Positions 985 through 38,086 of a DNA stretch of 41,270 bases are shown here, one piece after another (the stretch's first letter is position 1; the number at the start of each line of letters is the position of its first letter). The notes beneath the pieces were generated by a model that made no database searches, had not been told where the DNA came from, and saw only the letters and a program-made list of their open reading frames with translations. This DNA comes from a virus. Location of the stretch: IMG/VR virus record IMGVR_UViG_3300031920_000102, positions 1-41,270 of that record; one strand, given 5' to 3'. The position numbers were made by a program, and so were the translations under genes.

Positions 985-2479
985 AAATGTTTTTATTGTG
1001 TCGGCAAGAAGAAGTGGAACACATCTCACTATAGATACCGTTGTTAATAATTTTAATTATAGTAAGTTAGATGATAAAATATTTTATGATGAAATTAACG
1101 ATGTTAATATTAATCAATTTTATGATGAAATCTCAGAAGGTAAAAATGTAATTTGGTCACATTCTCACGATTTTAATCTTCAGAAAGAAGATATTTTATA
1201 TAATTCACATATAATTTACGTATATAGAGATATTAGGGATATAATTACGTCTGGATATTATCGCACAATAAAAAAAATGAATAAATATATACCATTTAAC
1301 GAATATTTTTATTCAATTAATCATAATTACACAACAATTAAAAAAGATTTAACATTATTGGATTATGGGATTTTGATAGATAATCAAAAAAAATGGTTTT
1401 CTGTATATGTGGCGAAAGAATTATTAGGTTTGAATATGATGGTAATTTCATATGAAGAAATTATTAATGATTACCATAATTCAGTAAAAAAAATAGGTAA
1501 ATTCTTAAAAGAAGAAATTAAAGAAATTAAAGACGTTAGATTAAAATCTTTAACTGATATTAAGCCAGATTTAGATTATAGCTATAATGATTTTAGAAAA
1601 GGTGGAATTGGTGATTGGAAAGAAACCTTTGGATTAGAGTGGGGTGAGAAAATAAAAGAAAAATATGATAAAGAAGTTGGTGTATATGTGAATAAATATA
1701 TTAAAGACAATGATTATCTCGATAACCATGATCCTGTAAAACAATATTTCCAAAAAGATAGTAATGATTGGGTGAAACTTGAACAGGAATATGATTTAGA
1801 ATTAAATAGTAGTAAAAATGAGTTTCTTGATCCAATGGTTGAATATGGATTAACCATTGATGAATTAATTAAAAACAGATATGATTTGTGTGAAAGAAAA
1901 ACAGATGATGTTAGATATATTCATAAAGTTTTTTTCTATAAAAATTTAGTTCTGAAATTTCTTTATCCATGTAAAGCTAATTTAGATAGAGATACGTTTA
2001 ATCATATAACATCTGCTGCATCTAAAAGGAATTTATTACGTATTATTAAAACACATAAATTTTTATCCGAAAACAAAATTACACCAGAATTATACTATGC
2101 TGGTATTTATGAGAAAATATTGTTTGTGGTCCAAGAAAGAGTTCCGGATAAAGAAATATTAAAAGATTTAGTTTATCTGGATAAAAATTGGAAATGGTTG
2201 GTTGATAATAAAATATACCCTAAAATATTAAAGAAATTTTTTATAGCTATAAACAATGGTATTGTTATGTGTGATTATATTTATCATTTATCTAACAATG
2301 CCCTTATTAATGGTGAAATAGTACATTTGGATTTAGACGGTATTTTCCATTTTAATTCAGTTGAAGAAATGAAAAAATCGGAAATATATAATAAAACAAT
2401 AAAGTTGTTTAAAGATTTAGATCAATTATGGATAGAAAAACATGGATATAGTGAATTAGAAAAACATATATGCCAATAA
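977..2479 (+). CDS. PAPS-dependent sulfotransferase fused to a kinase-like domain
   Basis: 500 residues. The N-terminal half is a sulfotransferase: SARRSGTHL at residues 9-17 is the 5'-phosphosulfate loop, YVYRDIRDIITSGYY is the 3'-phosphate-binding helix with Arg and Ser, and RKGGIGDWKETF is the family's KGxxGxWK motif. From about residue 300 a second domain begins: VLKF (candidate ATP-binding Lys), VVQERV (hinge-like), and HLDLDGIF, which resembles the metal-binding Asp loop of aminoglycoside/lipopolysaccharide kinase-like folds. The likely job is sulfation, and perhaps phosphorylation, of a glycan or small acceptor. The ATG at 977 is preferred over TTG at 974. The end overlaps the next sulfotransferase gene by 10 bases. 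The sulfotransferase call is firm; the kinase-like call is inference. Confidence 0.7.
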   Translation: MYKNVFIVSARRSGTHLTIDTVVNNFNYSKLDDKIFYDEINDVNINQFYDEISEGKNVIWSHSHDFNLQKEDILYNSHIIYVYRDIRDIITSGYYRTIKKMNKYIPFNEYFYSINHNYTTIKKDLTLLDYGILIDNQKKWFSVYVAKELLGLNMMVISYEEIINDYHNSVKKIGKFLKEEIKEIKDVRLKSLTDIKPDLDYSYNDFRKGGIGDWKETFGLEWGEKIKEKYDKEVGVYVNKYIKDNDYLDNHDPVKQYFQKDSNDWVKLEQEYDLELNSSKNEFLDPMVEYGLTIDELIKNRYDLCERKTDDVRYIHKVFFYKNLVLKFLYPCKANLDRDTFNHITSAASKRNLLRIIKTHKFLSENKITPELYYAGIYEKILFVVQERVPDKEILKDLVYLDKNWKWLVDNKIYPKILKKFFIAINNGIVMCDYIYHLSNNALINGEIVHLDLDGIFHFNSVEEMKKSEIYNKTIKLFKDLDQLWIEKHGYSELEKHICQ

Positions 2480-3099
2480 ATCATAAATATCAAATAATTT
2501 TCATACATATACCTAAAATTGCAGGTACAAGTATTGAAGTGTTTTTTAATATGCAGAAAAAAGAACTTTTTTATGGTGATTTTTATCAATATAATAATGG
2601 TTTTTCTACGGCATCGCAACATTTAACACCATTAGCGTTAAAAGAAAAAATTTCACCCGATACATTTAATAATTATTTTAAATTTACATTTGTTAGAAAT
2701 CCCTATGATAGAATCATATCAGAATATTATTATAAACGAATAAATAATCAAAACTTAATATCATATAATGATTTTACATATTGGTTAAATAATTTTTTAC
2801 ATAAAATAGATAGTGATCATAAATTACCACAATATAAATATGTTTACGATCACACAAATAACACAGATAAATTAATTAATTTTATTGGTAAATATGAAAA
2901 TCTATCACATGATTTTAATAAAATATTAAAATTAATAAACTATAGGGAGGATAATTTAAAATTAGGTAAACATTATGATAGTAATAATTTTTTAAATGTT
3001 CCTAAATTAAATAAAGATAAATTATTAACAAAAGAAAATAGGGATAAAATAATTGATACATATAAATTAGATTTTGAACTTTTTTCATATTCAACATAA
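2470..3099 (+). CDS. Sulfotransferase, Sulfotransfer_2-like
   Basis: 209 residues. FIHIPKIAGTSIE near the N-terminus is the hallmark 5'-phosphosulfate loop of the carbohydrate sulfotransferase family (F.HIPK.AGTS), and FTFVRNPYDRIISEYYY is the 3'-phosphate-binding motif (FVR.P.DR..S.Y). The protein is short but carries both cofactor loops. It has no signal peptide or membrane segment, so it acts in the cytoplasm. Its ATG overlaps the end of the preceding sulfotransferase, making a co-translated pair. The acceptor is unknown; a phage- or host-made polysaccharide is the natural guess. Confidence 0.75.
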   Translation: MPINHKYQIIFIHIPKIAGTSIEVFFNMQKKELFYGDFYQYNNGFSTASQHLTPLALKEKISPDTFNNYFKFTFVRNPYDRIISEYYYKRINNQNLISYNDFTYWLNNFLHKIDSDHKLPQYKYVYDHTNNTDKLINFIGKYENLSHDFNKILKLINYREDNLKLGKHYDSNNFLNVPKLNKDKLLTKENRDKIIDTYKLDFELFSYST

Positions 3100-4071: not shown

Positions 4072-4125
4072 TAAGCTGAACAGCACATTTACATTATTAA
4101 AAATTATAAAAAATTATTATTGCTT

Positions 4126-6768
4126 ATGAGTGAAAAATCATTAAAAGTTTTCCCAAGAGATGAAGTTTATGGGGAAACATTAGAGTATTTTAGTGGCGAT
4201 ACTTTAGCTACAGAAGTTTGGATTAATAAATACTGTTTAAAAGATTCTGATGGTAATCTTTACGAAAAAAATCCGGATCAGATGCACAGAAGATTAGCCA
4301 AAGAATTCGCAAGAATTGAAAATAATTACAAAAACCCCCTCACAGAAGAAGTAATCTACGAAAGATTAAAAAAATTCAATAGAATTGTTCCCGGTGGTTC
4401 ATCAATGAATGGTATCGGAAATGATTTTCAAGTTACATCACTATCTAATTGTTTTGTGATTGGTAATGAAAAAGATTCTGATTCGTATGGTGGAATAATG
4501 AAATTGGATCAAGAAATGGTACAACTTCAAAAAAGAAGAGGTGGTGTTGGTCTTGATTTATCATTTATACGTCCTGCAGGGACACCTGTAAAAAATAGTG
4601 CTATAACATCAACTGGTGTTGTTCCATTCATGGAAAGGTACTCAAATTCAACCAAAGAGGTTGCACAGGATGGTCGAAGAGGTGCATTAATGGAATCGAT
4701 ATCGATTATACATCCAGATGCTGAGAATTTTATTGATGCTAAGATGGAAAAGGGTAAAGTAACTGGTGCAAATATTTCTATTAAGATAACCGATGACTTT
4801 ATTAAAGCAGTTAAAAATGATGAATTATTTATACAACACTATCCTGTGGATTGGAAACATTTTCATCAAGATGAATTAACCGCTGGATTTATATCTGAAT
4901 TAGAAGAAGGTGATTTAAAAGAAGATAAATTATATGTATTGGGTAAGGGTTTTTACGCTAAAGCAGTAAATGCTCGTAGAATTTGGGAAAAAATTATACA
5001 TAATGCATGGGAGAGAGCAGAACCCGGTATATTATTTTGGGATACTATTATTAACGAATCAATTCCTGATTGTTATGGTGATTTAGGTTATAAAACAGTG
5101 TCAACAAACCCATGTGGTGAAATTCCACTTTGTCCTAATGATAGTTGTAGGTTATTAGCTCTTAATTTATATGGATATGTTGAAAATCCATTTACACCAG
5201 AAGCTAAATTTAAATTTGATCTATTTAAATCCGATACTATTATTGCTCAGAGGTTGATGGATGATCTTGTTACTCTTGAGATTGAAAAAATTGGTAAAAT
5301 AATAGAAAAAATTAAGAATGATCCTGAAGATGAGTTTATTAAACAATATGAGATTAATGTTTGGGAAAACATACTTAAAAAAACTACTGATGGTAGAAGA
5401 ACTGGTTTAGGTGTGACTGCTGAAGGTGATATGTTGGCAGCATTGGGTTATAGATACGGTACTGATGAAGCTAATAAATTTAGTGAACATGTTCATAAAA
5501 CATTGAAATTAAGTGCTTATCGTTCATCAGTAACAATGGCTAAAGAACGTGGTTCGTTTCCAATTTACGATGCAAAACGTGAGCCATATAATCCATTCAT
5601 TCAAAGAATAAAAGATGAGGATTCTCTATTATATGCTGATATGGTTACATATGGTCGTAGAAATCTTGCTCTGTTAACTATAGCACCAACTGGAACATTA
5701 TCTTTAATGACACAAACAACATCAGGTATTGAATGTGTTTTCCTTCCGGTGTATAAAAGATCGAAAAAAGTAAACCCCTCTGATAAAAATATTCGAGTTG
5801 ATCGAGTTGATGATGAAGGTATTGCATGGACAGAATATTCTGTATTTCATAAAAGATTTGAAGATTGGTTAGTTATTAAGGGGTATGATCTTGATGTAAT
5901 TAGAACAATGAAAGGTGAACAGATTGATGAAATAATTAAACAATCACCATACTATAAAGCAACATCACAGGATGTTGATTGGGTAAAAAAGGTTGAAATG
6001 CAAGGCATGGTTCAAAAACATGTTGATCATTCTATATCTGTGACTGTTAATTTACCTAATGACGTTTCAGAAGATATTGTTAAAGCAGTCTATGAAACAG
6101 GTTGGGATTGCGGTTGTAAAGGTATTACTGTATATCGAGAAGGTAGTAGGGAAGGTGTTTTAGCATCTGAAAAAGAAAGAGAAAGAAAAAATAGATTAGA
6201 ACTATATAGAGATAATCACGTACCTAAAAGACCTAAACGTTTGAAAGGTGATATTCATCGTTTTCAAAACAATCTTGAAAAGTGGATTGCTGTTGTTGGT
6301 ATCAATGATGATAGACCTTATGAGATTTTCACTGGTAGATTAGAGAATGGATTAAGTAAATTACCTAATTCAGTAAGTGAATGTGAGATCGTTAAAATAG
6401 TTTTTAATGATAAAGATGGTAATAGACAAAAAAGGTATGACCTTGAGTATATGGATAACGATGAAAAAATAATACTTGAAGGTGTGTCACATACATTTAA
6501 TAAAACATACTGGAATTACGCTAAATTTATTTCAGCAGTATTAAGACACGGTATGCCGATTATTTATACACATGAATTAATTGAAACATTAGATTTTGAT
6601 GAAGATCATATTAATACATGGAAAAATGGTGTTGCTCGTGTAATTAAACGATACATTAAAGACGGTGAGAAGAAAAAAGGCACTTGTCAAGTTTGTGGTG
6701 GAAGTGATTTTGAGTATAAAGAAGGTTGTCTTTTATGTATTGGTTGTGGTTGGTCAGCATGTAGTTAA
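4126..6768 (+). CDS. nrdJ: Adenosylcobalamin-dependent (class II) ribonucleoside-diphosphate reductase
   Basis: 880 residues. It reduces ribonucleotides to deoxyribonucleotides with a cobalamin-derived radical, in the cytoplasm. Visible landmarks: LSNCFVI with the N-terminal redox Cys109; NPCGEIPL with the Asn328/Cys330/Glu332 catalytic triad; and APTGTLS, the substrate phosphate loop. The C-terminal cysteine-rich tail (CQVCGG...CLLCIGCGWSAC) is typical of NrdJ, and no small subunit gene is nearby. Length fits the family. The ATG at 4126 is chosen over TTG at 4120. Codon use matches the neighbours. Being oxygen-independent and needing no second subunit, it suits a phage, but it ties replication to host cobalamin. 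Confidence 0.92.
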   Translation: MSEKSLKVFPRDEVYGETLEYFSGDTLATEVWINKYCLKDSDGNLYEKNPDQMHRRLAKEFARIENNYKNPLTEEVIYERLKKFNRIVPGGSSMNGIGNDFQVTSLSNCFVIGNEKDSDSYGGIMKLDQEMVQLQKRRGGVGLDLSFIRPAGTPVKNSAITSTGVVPFMERYSNSTKEVAQDGRRGALMESISIIHPDAENFIDAKMEKGKVTGANISIKITDDFIKAVKNDELFIQHYPVDWKHFHQDELTAGFISELEEGDLKEDKLYVLGKGFYAKAVNARRIWEKIIHNAWERAEPGILFWDTIINESIPDCYGDLGYKTVSTNPCGEIPLCPNDSCRLLALNLYGYVENPFTPEAKFKFDLFKSDTIIAQRLMDDLVTLEIEKIGKIIEKIKNDPEDEFIKQYEINVWENILKKTTDGRRTGLGVTAEGDMLAALGYRYGTDEANKFSEHVHKTLKLSAYRSSVTMAKERGSFPIYDAKREPYNPFIQRIKDEDSLLYADMVTYGRRNLALLTIAPTGTLSLMTQTTSGIECVFLPVYKRSKKVNPSDKNIRVDRVDDEGIAWTEYSVFHKRFEDWLVIKGYDLDVIRTMKGEQIDEIIKQSPYYKATSQDVDWVKKVEMQGMVQKHVDHSISVTVNLPNDVSEDIVKAVYETGWDCGCKGITVYREGSREGVLASEKERERKNRLELYRDNHVPKRPKRLKGDIHRFQNNLEKWIAVVGINDDRPYEIFTGRLENGLSKLPNSVSECEIVKIVFNDKDGNRQKRYDLEYMDNDEKIILEGVSHTFNKTYWNYAKFISAVLRHGMPIIYTHELIETLDFDEDHINTWKNGVARVIKRYIKDGEKKKGTCQVCGGSDFEYKEGCLLCIGCGWSACS

Positions 6769-19301: not shown

Positions 19302-19375
19302 GGGCGTGTAGCTCAGTTGGTCAGAGCACCGGATTTTAACCCCGGTAGTCACGGGTTCGACTCCCGTTATGCCCT
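19302..19375 (+). tRNA. tRNA with anticodon TTA (candidate UAA suppressor)
   Basis: All canonical lengths fit: acceptor GGGCGTG/TATGCCC, D-arm GCTC..GAGC, A26, anticodon stem CCGGA/CCCGG, loop TTTTAAC, variable TAGTC, T-arm ACGGG-TTCGACT-CCCGT, discriminator U. Positions 34-36 therefore read TTA, pairing with the stop codon UAA. Pair 31-39 is A-C. The anticodon arm resembles tRNA-Lys (CCGGA-CTTTTAA-TCCGG) shifted by one base. It may be a suppressor derived from tRNA-Lys or a damaged tRNA-Lys. Confidence 0.7.
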
Positions 19376-19400
19376 CTAAATAAATATAAATTTGTATATT

Positions 19401-31128: not shown

Positions 31129-31476
31129 TCAGGTTATACCACTATGTATTTTATCACGAACTAATTTCTTAATTTTATCCCAATCATAATCGGGATATTT
31201 TTTTACAACATTATTATATATAAAATCAACAGCATTTTTATTATCATCAGTGTCAGGAGAATTATAATTCGGAAATTTCTTTGAGATATCTTTCCAATAA
31301 TCATCATCCAATGATCCTTGATATACCTTTTCAGCATCTTTAACATTATTTTCGAATAATTTAACTACTTTAGGATCAAGTCCTTGGGCGTAATATGTAT
31401 TACCCCCATTAGGATCAAATAATTCTTTCAATAATTTAGTAAATTCTTCTTGAATTATTATATTAGTCTGTTTCAT
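31129..31476 (-). CDS. Hypothetical protein with capsid-targeting-like N-terminus
   Basis: 115 residues from ATG 31476 (an ATG at 31488 also exists). The start KQTNIIIQEEFTKLLKE is an amphipathic helix ending in Leu-Lys-Glu at 16-18, the (L/I)xE form of prohead-protease sites in T4-type internal proteins; the mature part would begin LFDPNGGN. The rest is acidic and helical with YPDYDWDKIKKLVRDKIHSG at the end. It overlaps the end of the upstream repeat protein, so both are co-translated. Confidence 0.6.
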   Translation of the reverse strand: MKQTNIIIQEEFTKLLKELFDPNGGNTYYAQGLDPKVVKLFENNVKDAEKVYQGSLDDDYWKDISKKFPNYNSPDTDDNKNAVDFIYNNVVKKYPDYDWDKIKKLVRDKIHSGIT

Positions 31477-32089: not shown

Positions 32090-33076
32090 TTATATAATAA
32101 TTATGTCTTTAGGATGTCTTAAATTCCAAAATTTAACAAGAACATCCTCATCTAATAAATTAGATTCCAATAATTGTGGGTCAGTTATTATTTTACAATC
32201 TCTATTACAAGTCTCATTTAGTGTTGTTGACCATCTATTACCCCTCATTGACTTATAATTCAAAACATCTACTTTTGTAACCTTTTTTTTCTGAACATTA
32301 AACATTAACCTTAATAGGTGATTATGTTTAGATATTAAAGGTATAACTAACCAACAAAGTAATCTTTTAAATATATTATCTTTTAATATAAATACTTGCC
32401 ATGCAAAATTATGCAATGTGAATGTTGGTGTTAATATTTTACAACACAATAACTTCCATTTAGATAGGTCTTCTCTTCTTGTTTTTTTAAATTCTTCTTG
32501 TGTTTTTTCAGGACTAAAACCAGCAATTAAATTAATAAATTTATTCCAAATAATTGTTCCGAGTATAACAAAAATTGATTGAAGATAAAACAAAGGTGCT
32601 GCCCACCACTTACCAGCGAACATTTTAATCCAACACCATAATTGTGGTGTGATTTTATGACTTATGTTAAACACTAAATCATTATCCTTTTCTCTGATAC
32701 TATATTTAATGTTTTTAGCTAATTCAACAATAAATGGATCGTTTGCTAGTTTTAACGCAACAAATGTTGTTATTATATGATCCCTACTAAATGTCTTATA
32801 ATAATATTCAGGACTTGGATATCTTTGTCCTCTGTAATAATATTTCCATTTTTTGAAAAACATTTTATAATCAGAATCAATATCGATTTTAATCCAACAA
32901 TTTTTAATGCCCTGAATAAAGTTTTGGTCGTTATAACAAAAATAAGCAACCATTGATCTACCTATTGAGTCACCTTTACCTTCATCACCATTAATGTTCC
33001 AATTTGCGTTTTGAACTAACATCATTTTATCTCGTACAAAATGATATGTTGTTTTAATTTTTGAGTCGTACCTCAT
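32090..33076 (-). CDS. Hypothetical protein, helical, possibly membrane-associated
   Basis: 328 residues. The N-terminal third contains NINGDEGKGDSIGRSMVAYF and a FSRDHIITTFVALKLAND segment. These look like a conserved active-site-rich alpha-helical domain of toroid glycosidase type, but I cannot name the family. Around 150-185 (WAAPLFYLQSIFVILGTIIW) and 235-250 lie hydrophobic stretches that may be membrane helices. Own GTATTTATA element upstream; it is followed after 3 bases by the repeat-rich gene. Confidence 0.55.
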   Translation of the reverse strand: MRYDSKIKTTYHFVRDKMMLVQNANWNINGDEGKGDSIGRSMVAYFCYNDQNFIQGIKNCWIKIDIDSDYKMFFKKWKYYYRGQRYPSPEYYYKTFSRDHIITTFVALKLANDPFIVELAKNIKYSIREKDNDLVFNISHKITPQLWCWIKMFAGKWWAAPLFYLQSIFVILGTIIWNKFINLIAGFSPEKTQEEFKKTRREDLSKWKLLCCKILTPTFTLHNFAWQVFILKDNIFKRLLCWLVIPLISKHNHLLRLMFNVQKKKVTKVDVLNYKSMRGNRWSTTLNETCNRDCKIITDPQLLESNLLDEDVLVKFWNLRHPKDIIII

Positions 33077-33118: not shown

Positions 33119-35152
33119 TTAATTAGTTTTGAGAATTTTTGAGTAGTAAACCTCATTATTAGATACGATCATAATCAAAAATAGTGTATGTGTAGTGGTA
33201 AATAGATAACTACCGGGAACACTATAATGTTCTTTGTTAATTAGTTGTCCGGAAATGTTGTATATGTAAATATCACCATGTTTCGGTGATGTTATATTCA
33301 TAAAAATAATTTCATTTTTAATTAATACATCAACTAATCCACTATTATATTTGTTTTTATTTAATATAACTAATTCATCTGATTTTAATTGAATGTTTTC
33401 AGTAATTTTACAATTATTTTGGTCTGTGATTTCAAAGGAATAATTACCTTCGATAACATTAAATAAATATTTACCAATATCACCTGTAGACCATTCGATA
33501 ATATACGAATCGTCACATAATAATATAATAGAACCGTCTCTTGATATTGATTTCGATGGTTTAATTAAATCGTATTCATATTTGATACTATCTGGTTCAC
33601 TTATGGTTATTTTTTCAACAATCACATCCTTACCATCGGTAATTGTTGCAATATACTCACCAACACCTAGTGATGTTATTTTATTATCGGTTGAACCATT
33701 TGACCAATGAATTATATGTGAAGGGATACCACCTTTTGTAATAATGTTAATCATACCATCGTTATTACCTGCACAACTAACATTACTTATTTCTGTTTCT
33801 ATTGTGATTGGTTTATTGTAATGTAGAATAAATCTATCATTAACATCTAAACCGAAGAAACAATCAAATTCATATTCCGGGGATGTGTTTAAATTAATGA
33901 TAGTATCTTTAATTACATCTTCCAAATATAATGGTATGGAATTTAATTCAGTAAGACCATTAAATCTAAGTACATATTCATCAGGTAAATTCAGATCAAT
34001 ATATAAAGGAATTTCCAAATGTTGATCCGGCATAGGTTGTGTGTTAATTATTAGTTTCTTATTATCTGAAGTAACTGTATATATTTGTGGTACATGTATA
34101 TTATGTGTGAATCTTTTAAGACCATCTGAGACCTTATCATACTCATTGGTGGAATTGCTCGAAAATTTAATTATCGTTTCGTCTGTGTAACGTGAACCAG
34201 TTAATGTGATGTTTAATTGTGATATATCGTTTGATTTCAACGCACTTGATTCCTTTAACGATTTAATATCATTGGTAAATGTAACAACATTAGTACCTTC
34301 ATATGAACATTTCACAAAAAATCCTTGACCTATTGGAATGTTTTTTGTTCCACCATTAGCACCAACACCATTTATATATGTTGCCCAATTTTGTATTTTA
34401 CTATCCCACACATAAAAACCATTTCCTATTATGTCTTTATAAAAATCAGGTATTAGGTCCAAATTAATATTACACGGGTATGGATTTCCAATTAAATTCC
34501 AACCTTCATAACCCTCTAAACTATCACCAGTGGTATGTGATACATTAATATCGTAAGCACCATCGTTAAATGTGCCAGTGTATGTTATTTTATCTGTGGT
34601 TAAGTTAACATCTAGACCTTCCATAGGTACATAATTACCAGATTTATATATCCAACCTTTTTTTAATGTATCTGCAGAGTTTGGTTCATACCATCTATAT
34701 TTTATACCCGGTAATGAATCAGCAATATCCCCAGATATGGGGGATGAAATATAATGCCATTCGTTTGGTACTATTGTTGATATAAATATAGCATTACCAA
34801 ATATTGTTAACACACCATAATTAATCACTGATGCAGAAAAATCACTATTTGATTCTAAAATAAAATCTTTTAATATTGTTAAACTACCTGTTTGTTCAAT
34901 GACAATATATGATTGGGGTGATATTGTTATTTGGTTACATTTATATTTATCTGTGATGTGTGGATAATTATTAACAATGTTAGGGATTATAACAATACTT
35001 TTATTTTTTGGGACAATACCATTATCCCAATTGTTTATATCCCCCCAATCATTCGAAATATCACCATTCCAAATAAAATCTTGAGATTTTAATGGTATGA
35101 ATATCGTAATTAAAACTAAGATAAGATAAATATATTTTTTTATCGTTTTCAT
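33119..35152 (-). CDS. Secreted SprB-repeat protein with type IX secretion sorting domain
   Basis: 677 residues. Signal peptide at 1-23 (KKYIYLILVLITIFIPLKSQ). FIWNGDISNDWGDINNWDNG is the W.G..s.dW....NW..g motif common at the start of Bacteroidota surface proteins. A large beta-rich middle follows. Near 450-520 is an SprB-type repeat: NVSCAGNNDGMINIITKGGI, HWSNGSTDNKI, GVGEYIATITDG. The last ~80 residues (IYIYNISGQLINKE...YYSKILKTN) resemble a type A sorting domain recognised by the type IX system, so the protein should be exported to the host surface. It is a single gene with its own GTATTTATA element. Confidence 0.75.
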   Translation of the reverse strand: MKTIKKYIYLILVLITIFIPLKSQDFIWNGDISNDWGDINNWDNGIVPKNKSIVIIPNIVNNYPHITDKYKCNQITISPQSYIVIEQTGSLTILKDFILESNSDFSASVINYGVLTIFGNAIFISTIVPNEWHYISSPISGDIADSLPGIKYRWYEPNSADTLKKGWIYKSGNYVPMEGLDVNLTTDKITYTGTFNDGAYDINVSHTTGDSLEGYEGWNLIGNPYPCNINLDLIPDFYKDIIGNGFYVWDSKIQNWATYINGVGANGGTKNIPIGQGFFVKCSYEGTNVVTFTNDIKSLKESSALKSNDISQLNITLTGSRYTDETIIKFSSNSTNEYDKVSDGLKRFTHNIHVPQIYTVTSDNKKLIINTQPMPDQHLEIPLYIDLNLPDEYVLRFNGLTELNSIPLYLEDVIKDTIINLNTSPEYEFDCFFGLDVNDRFILHYNKPITIETEISNVSCAGNNDGMINIITKGGIPSHIIHWSNGSTDNKITSLGVGEYIATITDGKDVIVEKITISEPDSIKYEYDLIKPSKSISRDGSIILLCDDSYIIEWSTGDIGKYLFNVIEGNYSFEITDQNNCKITENIQLKSDELVILNKNKYNSGLVDVLIKNEIIFMNITSPKHGDIYIYNISGQLINKEHYSVPGSYLFTTTHTLFLIMIVSNNEVYYSKILKTN

Positions 35153-35178
35153 TATTACAAATATATAATTCTTTTTAA

Positions 35179-35944: not shown

Positions 35945-36688
35945 ATGTTATCTTTTAAAACACACCCACAAGAAATAGAAGAACTGAAAAATCAAATAAA
36001 TTCAGGTAAGTTCTATTCAATCACATTTATTAAAAAAGATGATGAATTAAGATATTTAAACGGTCAAAAAAGAATATATAACCCCGGTGAAGATGTTAAA
36101 CAATCATCATACTCACGCCCCGATAATGGTTTATTTACTGTATGGGATGCTAATGCTCCTGATTATAAAACAGGTAAAAGGGGTGCATATCGTATAGTTA
36201 CAGTTGCAAATATTCTTTACGTCAAATCTGGTGGTTTTGTAAAAGATTATACTGAGGAAAATCAAATACAAGAAAGATACGGATATACTGATGAACAATT
36301 AAATGAGATTAAGAAAAAAATGAAGATCGATTCTATGATTCAGGAAGAAATGTTAAATGTTATTTCTGAAAATACTGAAACATATGATATCAATGGTCTA
36401 CTTGAACTCATTAATAGATTCTTAAAAGGTGATGCTGTTAAACAATGGGCAACTCATGTACTCCAAACTGCTCAAAAACAAGGATATGAAAAAATACCTG
36501 CAGGTGATCAAGCAATAATTGCAGCAATGAAAGATATTACTGGTATTGATCTTAAACCAATTGGTGGTGGTAAATATCAATTAGATTTTAGTGCAGGTGC
36601 TGAATATACACCACAAGCAAAAAGCGGTGTGAGTCCTGACAGTAATAAAATATATCAAACTGGATATACTGGTCAAAGCGATGAGTAA
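35945..36688 (+). CDS. Hypothetical phage protein with SH3-like N-terminal domain
   Basis: 247 residues. Residues ~20-95 (KFYSITFIKKDDELRYLNGQKR, LFTVWDAN, GAYRIVTVANILYVKSGG) form a small beta-barrel pattern (I.F.KkdGelR.mn......vyD....yR.v....I) seen in many large phages. The middle is helical and acidic; the C-terminus is Gly-rich and probably disordered. It could be an internal virion or replication-associated protein. Single gene behind a GTATTTATA element; convergent with the next gene, one base apart. Confidence 0.55.
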   Translation: MLSFKTHPQEIEELKNQINSGKFYSITFIKKDDELRYLNGQKRIYNPGEDVKQSSYSRPDNGLFTVWDANAPDYKTGKRGAYRIVTVANILYVKSGGFVKDYTEENQIQERYGYTDEQLNEIKKKMKIDSMIQEEMLNVISENTETYDINGLLELINRFLKGDAVKQWATHVLQTAQKQGYEKIPAGDQAIIAAMKDITGIDLKPIGGGKYQLDFSAGAEYTPQAKSGVSPDSNKIYQTGYTGQSDE

Positions 36689-37126: not shown

Positions 37127-38086
37127 TTATTTATAATGTTTTTTACATACAAAACCTTGATTTCTAAGATCACCCTTATGTCCTGTTTCATCTACAAAAC
37201 CACCATTATATCCCTCCATAATCATAATGTATTTTCTACATCCTTCATGATCGCAATATAATCGCTTTTCAATATATACTTCTTCTGAATCTCTTTTCGG
37301 TTCTTCATAATCATCACCCTTATCAGTATATTCTTTGAATGGTATATCAACTGACTTTTTGAATGAGTAATTAAATGGGTCACCTTGACCACCTCCGGTT
37401 CTACGAGTTAAAATACCATCACAATCACCACAGAATCTTTCACCCATAGCCATTTTTGTAGGTAAAGAACCATAATCAATGACTTCACCACAATGTTCAC
37501 ACATCCAACTAACATTCCTTAGTCTCTCTGATGCTTCCCATCTTCTATTATGATTAAGTTTTTTAAATTCTTCAGGTGTAAGTTTCGCATCTTTATCTAT
37601 TCTCCATACGACTTTAATCTCACCAATTAATGATTGTAATTGTTTAAGACTAACATCACATAATTTATACATTTTCAATAATTGATGTGGTGTACCGTGA
37701 TATTTAAGTATCATATTGGTCAAATGATTATTATACAATATACCATCTACAAATATTGGTTCTTCTGAAATATACACAGCTAGAAATATTTCCAATGATG
37801 TTATTTGTTCATCTTTTGAGTCTGGGTGTGATCTATATTCACTCGGTAATGTTATATATTCAGGATATTCTAAATTAGTTAACCCTTCAACAAATAAATT
37901 AGGTATGTTATTTTTACCACTGTAAGAAATACCAATATTAGATATTTTTAGATTAGATCGTTCAATTTCATCAGCTAATTGGTGTAGATGTTGTACAATC
38001 CAAGTATTATCAGACCAATCTTCATTTCCGATCAATGGCATATCGTATTTGATACCATTCTTTGTTTTACCTATACCTAATCCCAT
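37127..38086 (-). CDS. Hypothetical zinc-ribbon protein
   Basis: 319 residues. Two zinc-binding segments: MCEHCGEVIDYG...RFCGDCDG (CxxC...CxxC, about 195-228) and YCDHEGCRKYI...FVCKKHYK at the C-terminus. The N-terminal 190 residues have no known motif. Multiple zinc sites suggest nucleic-acid or protein binding. First gene of a two-gene minus-strand unit with the DUF2227-like protein. Confidence 0.6.
   Translation of the reverse strand: MGLGIGKTKNGIKYDMPLIGNEDWSDNTWIVQHLHQLADEIERSNLKISNIGISYSGKNNIPNLFVEGLTNLEYPEYITLPSEYRSHPDSKDEQITSLEIFLAVYISEEPIFVDGILYNNHLTNMILKYHGTPHQLLKMYKLCDVSLKQLQSLIGEIKVVWRIDKDAKLTPEEFKKLNHNRRWEASERLRNVSWMCEHCGEVIDYGSLPTKMAMGERFCGDCDGILTRRTGGGQGDPFNYSFKKSVDIPFKEYTDKGDDYEEPKRDSEEVYIEKRLYCDHEGCRKYIMIMEGYNGGFVDETGHKGDLRNQGFVCKKHYK

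Follow-up and report, generated by a model that had tools for sequence, protein, structure and literature searches.

A RemA/RemZ-like gene of the type IX secretion cargo type, with SprB modules, in a large phage of Bacteroidota

The gene and its phage context

A 41-kb fragment of a metagenomic virus record (41,270 nucleotides; hereafter the window) contains, on its minus strand, a gene that we call P0001. The open reading frame runs from 33119 to 35152, exactly as the preliminary description had it, starts with ATG and continues uninterrupted for 677 codons. The gene and its parts are as follows, T9SS standing for the type IX secretion system.

33119 to 35152, minus strand: whole gene (P0001), RemA/RemZ-like T9SS-type cargo (open reading frame; collinear at full length with the cellular protein L022)
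35158 to 35165, minus strand: TATATTTG, candidate -7 box, 13 to 6 bases 5′ of the ATG (fits TAnnTTTG)
35084 to 35152, minus strand: Sec signal peptide, residues 1-23, predicted cleavage between KS and QD (sequence, Q-rule, helix in the model)
34763 to 35083, minus strand: beta domain with W.G..S.DW..NW (NW domain), residues 24-130 (sequence, RemA profile alignment, model)
33809 to 34762, minus strand: core with GWNLIGNPYP, residues 131-448 (RemA/RemZ profile search)
33587 to 33796, minus strand: SprB module 1, residues 453-522, with the Pfam match at residues 454-488 (PF13573, E 6e-8)
33392 to 33508, minus strand: degenerate SprB-like module 2, residues 549-587 (16 bits with our own SprB profile)
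33122 to 33340, minus strand: divergent type A T9SS sorting domain, residues 605-677, seven strands (profiles, conserved residues, AlphaFold)

The window is part of a large phage of Bacteroidota. It encodes an adenosylcobalamin (B12)-dependent ribonucleotide reductase (4120-6768; TIGR02504, E 6e-155) that is 59% identical to that of the huge phage LR745206, and it contains a match to phrog_2426 (E 4e-149), homing endonucleases and 12 tRNA calls. Comparison of synteny with LR745206 around the reductase revealed nothing besides the reductase within 400-450 kb. No capsid or tail genes were recognised among the window ORFs scanned. Relatives of the neighbouring frames at 32090-33076 and 37127-38086 were not found in viral contigs, and those of the frame at 32090-33076 were likewise not found in phage records. 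Adjoining sulfotransferase genes lie at 974-2479 and 2470-3099 (PF00685, PF03567), the second of which matches phrog_3347, galactose-3-O-sulfotransferase; they are possibly another means of altering surface sugars. The tRNA that ARAGORN called at 19302-19376 has the anticodon TTA and would read UAA. TAA is the stop codon of 47 of the 55 listed window genes, and this tRNA is probably no working suppressor.

On the same contig, P0001 has phage-type genes on both sides, with matches to phrog_2267 at 35945 (E 8e-8) and to phrog_8376 at 31129 (E 0.002), which upholds the earlier description of the gene as phage-encoded. Since its base and codon composition (28.3% GC, GC3 0.186) is like that of its neighbours, P0001 does not have the look of a recent arrival. 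These flanking genes and the shared base composition, together with the T9SS cargo genes that we also found in huge phage genomes, argue against the possibility that the locus is an assembly chimera or host DNA instead of a phage gene. Although the record is a metagenomic fragment and the relatives with the full layout are all cellular, we regard such an origin as extremely improbable.

Upstream of P0001, the sequence TATATTTG fits TAnnTTTG, the consensus of the Bacteroidota -7 box; no clear -33 box was seen upstream of the gene. Because a -7 box occurs within 60 bases upstream of 2 of the 55 listed window genes, which is about the background rate, the match is weak, and we rejected it as evidence for a promoter.

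Domain architecture of P0001

By inspection, the N-terminus, MKTIKKYIYLILVLITIFIPLKS followed by QDFIW, has a basic n-region, a hydrophobic core and Gln at +1, and residues 2-16 form a helix in the AlphaFold model. Residues 1-24 thus carry the Sec signal peptide expected of T9SS type A cargo, and the signal peptide reported in the preliminary description is borne out. The predicted site also agrees with the rule that in Bacteroidota signal-peptide cleavage exposes Gln (Q-rule) (PMC5837995).

Residues 28-42, WNGDISNDWGDINNW, fit the pattern W.G..S.DW..NW, as had been claimed. This had been read as a surface motif; the motif stands, but the bulk of the protein proved to be a RemA/RemZ-type domain instead of a bare motif. 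In a search with a profile of 39 sequences, P0001 at their head, residues ~28-448 (NW domain and core) were homologous to RemA 879-1349 (E 6.6e-57) and to RemZ 577-1026 (E 1.1e-48). The NW domain, modelled with pLDDT mostly >88, is aligned inside the match that starts at RemA residue 879. The next profile matches were mostly PKD-type domains and fell on alignment columns past the core, and a single-sequence phmmer search with P0001 against PDB sequences gave no match. RemA, which has a type A domain, serves Flavobacterium johnsoniae as a gliding adhesin, and its homologue RemZ was found trapped in the SprA-PorV translocon of F. johnsoniae (PMC10994853). With a homologous NW domain and GWN core ahead of a sorting domain, P0001 belongs with the RemA/RemZ-like proteins. 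By the profile search, it is this domain that really ties P0001 to gliding adhesins, and not the SprB repeat.

The SprB-type repeat proposed earlier is present. PF13573 matched residues 454-488 with 32.6 bits (E 6e-8; cut-off 28 bits), which places P0001 in the SprB-repeat family, and the same search of 14 control genomes gave no match. Module 1 scored 89 bits with a phage SprB-repeat profile to which it is itself a contributor. Module 2 was absent from the preliminary description; the two-module layout is shared by L022. The type B sorting domain found in SprB proper (TIGR04131) had no match in the window, and a search for the SprF/PorP partner (TIGR03519) gave none in the window or related phages, with the controls equally silent. 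The part of the model that holds the SprB-type modules (residues 449-594) aligns with pieces of the Aureispira grappling hook protein GhpA (139 residues aligned, Z 8.0, rmsd 3.3).

Phage virions commonly bear Ig-like modules, and a viral contig encodes a 1314-aa SprB-type protein without a signal peptide (L004:5754-9698). Both observations fit a reading in which P0001 is a virion fibre or decoration that attaches to the host surface through its SprB-type modules, and its hydrophobic N-terminus and C-terminal domain are relics. However, the signal peptide is intact, with a Q-rule site, and would remove a virion protein from the cytoplasm. Moreover, P0001 is collinear throughout with L022, a cellular protein of secreted type, and no structural gene was recognised in the scanned window ORFs. 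A role in the virion is therefore distinctly unlikely.

The C-terminal sorting domain

A type A sorting domain had been described as visible at the C-terminus. The evidence supports the domain, but library thresholds do not reveal it. Neither Pfam nor NCBIfam gave a sorting domain for P0001 at E<=1, and PF18962 did not match. In a six-frame search, positions 9-71 of the 72 in TIGR04183 fell on residues 614-675 with 18.1 bits, so the proposed check with this model failed at its cut-off of 23 bits and the C-terminus lies below both curated type A cut-offs. We also scored it with an independent profile built on the C-terminal 85 residues of the cellular relatives. This profile gave 18.2 bits on the P0001 C-terminus, 13.0 on the best of 5000 shuffles of that C-terminus, and <=4.0 on every other window ORF. 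By the shuffle test, homology to T9SS sorting domains is beyond chance. Together with the Q-rule signal peptide, this result sustains, on sequence evidence, the earlier assignment of P0001 to T9SS-type cargo.

Conserved residues and the predicted fold also point to a type A domain. In an alignment of 37 domains, Gly635 is the one invariant column and Lys672, in the last strand, is a nearly invariant Lys; P0001 keeps both. Lys672 aligns with RemZ Lys1110, which contacts PorV (PMC10994853), and Gly635 with the β3-β4 loop glycine whose change to Arg abolishes export of RgpB (PMC11285876). Motif D (GxY) is lost, with TLFLIMI in its place and the Tyr gone, and the domain also lacks the N-terminal NP motif. 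An alignment that includes the P0001 C-terminus, but is dominated by its relatives, matched T9SS domains in the PDB at E 1e-9 to 1e-6. AlphaFold produced the anticipated C-terminal domain, an Ig-like β-sandwich with seven strands at residues 607-674 of the whole-protein model (pLDDT 86.2) and again seven when the domain was modelled alone (pLDDT 86.9). Among its best matches was the translocon-bound RemA sorting domain (Z 9.0, rmsd 2.2, 72 aligned), and comparison with RgpB gave Z 8.7. Since unrelated Ig-like domains score nearly equal to T9SS domains against this model, the fold adds little specificity and alone proves nothing.

With a sorting domain below threshold, periplasmic retention, even jamming of the translocon, is possible. 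P0001 could be a captured host gene with a decayed sorting domain, its product exported by Sec but kept in the periplasm, or functionless. The low score and the loss of motif D agree with such decay, as does a comparison with HBP35, in which the last 22 residues suffice for export and hold motifs D and E (PMC10202324), whereas P0001 keeps only E intact. Decay is nonetheless unlikely, as the frame of 677 codons is uninterrupted, its codon composition is like that of the neighbours, and Gly635 and Lys672 are kept. Retention of these docking residues together with loss of motif D is also the basis of a very improbable variant, in which P0001 is a poor substrate that occupies SprA-PorV and slows the export of host adhesins, a viral inhibitor of type IX secretion derived from a gliding adhesin. 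If this were true, phage receptors and gliding would be removed from the infected cell.

Cellular relatives and origin

In one scan of 84,980 genomes, relatives of the core numbered at least 264, virtually all of them in Bacteroidota/Chlorobiota and spanning Bacteroidales, Cytophagales, Flavobacteriales, Chitinophagaceae and Chlorobiota. The preliminary description had held that the protein identifies the host group and had traced SprB repeats to Flavobacteria. A host among Bacteroidota with a T9SS stands; Flavobacteria in particular do not, since the core relatives extend across several orders and into Chlorobiota. Assigning the host through the family of the nearest cellular relative was dropped because a strong relative was present in 3 of 23 genomes, which is too sparse. 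By inspection, nearly all complete cellular relatives end in sorting-domain-like C-termini, and 7 of 8 sampled relatives passed the TIGR04183 cut-off.

The sister of P0001 in the core tree (support 99/91) is L022, a 1372-aa protein from Bacteroidota bacterium MAG bin37 (JAJUGM010000212.1). The two are collinear and 32.6% identical over 660 aa (E 7e-99), and L022 likewise has the NW domain, the core, two SprB modules and a sorting domain. Unlike P0001, it is cellular, adjoins a reading frame resembling an ABC transporter with a peptidase domain, is twice as long and has intact sorting motifs. The homology of the core to RemA and RemZ, together with this collinear Bacteroidota protein, indicates that P0001 is a captured RemA/RemZ-like T9SS cargo gene.

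The huge phage LR745206 (634,780 bp) encodes a second phage-borne protein with an NW domain and GWN core, which we call P0002 and whose type A domain is weak (E 0.0018); unlike P0001, it has no SprB module. P0002 lies elsewhere in the core tree, and the two were united in 0% of bootstrap trees. We therefore rejected a single phage origin and conclude that two independent captures took place. The RemA-type core is rare in the viral contigs of IMG/VR, in which no close phage relatives of P0001 were found; the searches yielded no more than an SprB match and, separately, a single doubtful protein of 1362 aa that has no sorting domain.

Proposed function and comparison with known T9SS cargo

We consider it likely that P0001 is a captured gene for a Bacteroidota RemA/RemZ-type surface protein that is exported by the host T9SS and modifies the surface of the infected cell. 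Once infection has begun, the protein would be made with its signal peptide, Sec would carry it across the inner membrane, and the peptide would be removed ahead of Gln24. The host SprA-PorV translocon would then take up the C-terminal type A domain in the periplasm, so that P0001 ends on the exterior of the infected cell, either anchored to it or released. In that position, its RemA-like domain and its pair of SprB-type Ig-like modules would form an adhesive or covering surface, and the exposed protein would most likely alter the contact of other phages, neighbouring cells or surfaces with the infected cell.

From its type A domain, P0001 would be expected to depend on PorV and to be anchored at the surface or released. 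In F. johnsoniae, where a protein ends up depends on its sorting domain: when SprB is given RemA's type A domain, it is exported, yet immobile or released (PMC12618676). The SprB modules of P0001 are thus not expected on the gliding track. By analogy with what Bellas et al. proposed for other phage T9SS cargo (PMC7468147), superinfection exclusion or receptor masking is probably the likeliest benefit; altered gliding and a decoy role, both suggested in the preliminary description, are further hypotheses. Given the kinship of P0001 to adhesins and its secretion tag, the virus probably furnishes the surface of its host with this protein in the course of infection.

Other huge phages carry T9SS cargo genes, among them LR745206 and LR756502 (642,428 bp), whose genomes are two of the largest known from phages. 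LR745206 has three type A matches (two above cut-off) and four type B matches (three above). LR756502 has a single type A match and three of type B, and the 1670-aa protein that bears one of these matches contains 14 SprB repeats. The two phages, of 634 and 642 kb, have at least four T9SS cargo genes each. In a third huge phage, LR756500.1, a frame of 378 aa on the minus strand at ~36.9-38.0 kb (L010) combines a signal peptide and an NW-like motif with a type A sorting domain. Al-Shayeb et al. assigned phages of 634- and 642-kb size to the Mahaphage clade, for which Bacteroidetes were the predicted hosts, and suggested that phage proteins predicted at the cell surface may influence infection by other phages (PMC7162821).

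Scanning IMG/VR with the type B domain gave 120 stretches, of which we kept 78 loci, several of them near-identical and some possibly misfiled bacterial contigs. By our own criteria, 72 of the 75 complete ORFs among these loci begin with a signal-peptide-like stretch, followed by Gln in 60, and SprB repeats occur in 33 of the 78. A recurrent phage family has QYCPxLGPDQxLPCGV after the signal peptide, a length of 650-820 aa, often SprB repeats, and a type B domain. It is found in many viral contigs (L113-L190 from IMG/VR, e.g. L138:4066-6279, L122 and L177) and in LR745206 (L103:529-2727); the two members tested, L138 and L103, had no PHROG match. The contig that encodes the 1314-aa SprB-type protein also encodes, nearby, a protein of 790 aa whose type A sorting domain is clear (L004:11929-14301). 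Considering the cargo sets of the huge phages and the SprB/type B family in dozens of viral contigs, T9SS surface remodelling looks general.

Phage-encoded T9SS cargo was already reported in 2019-2020 (PMC7468147, PMC6949934). Like P0001, the cryophage cargo is phage-encoded and has type A sorting domains, but none of it is a RemA/SprB adhesin. It comprises a GH39 hydrolase, an endoglucanase and a PA14 protein, and its authors suggested that it serves superinfection exclusion and competition (Bellas et al., 2020; PMC7468147). A crAss-like phage ORF also combines BACON repeats with a T9SS sorting domain, and neither the RemA core nor SprB was reported for the BACON proteins (PMC6949934). Phages of P. 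gingivalis encode Q-rule secreted proteins (PMC10367356). Within the open-access literature, a scope that leaves out most subscription journals, we found no RemA/SprB-type adhesin as phage T9SS cargo, and SprB repeats together with phage led only to work on Bacteroidetes toxins. As the earlier reports lack the RemA/SprB form, this adhesin design looks new among phage T9SS cargo. Large Bacteroidota phages thus carry adhesin-type as well as enzyme-type cargo, and whether a phage-borne T9SS adhesin excludes other phages or alters gliding becomes a directly testable question.

The known systems most like P0001 in layout are RemA (PDB 8gl6) and RemZ (Fjoh_0803; PDB 8gl8), in which the NW motif and GWN core span ~420 residues, are arranged as in P0001 and lead up to a type A sorting domain. 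They are T9SS substrates, and P0001 is T9SS-type cargo by sequence. Unlike the F. johnsoniae proteins, P0001 is phage-borne and about half as long (677 versus 1114-1436 aa). It lacks their long N-terminal part, its sorting domain is divergent from theirs, and it carries two SprB-type modules between the core and the sorting domain.
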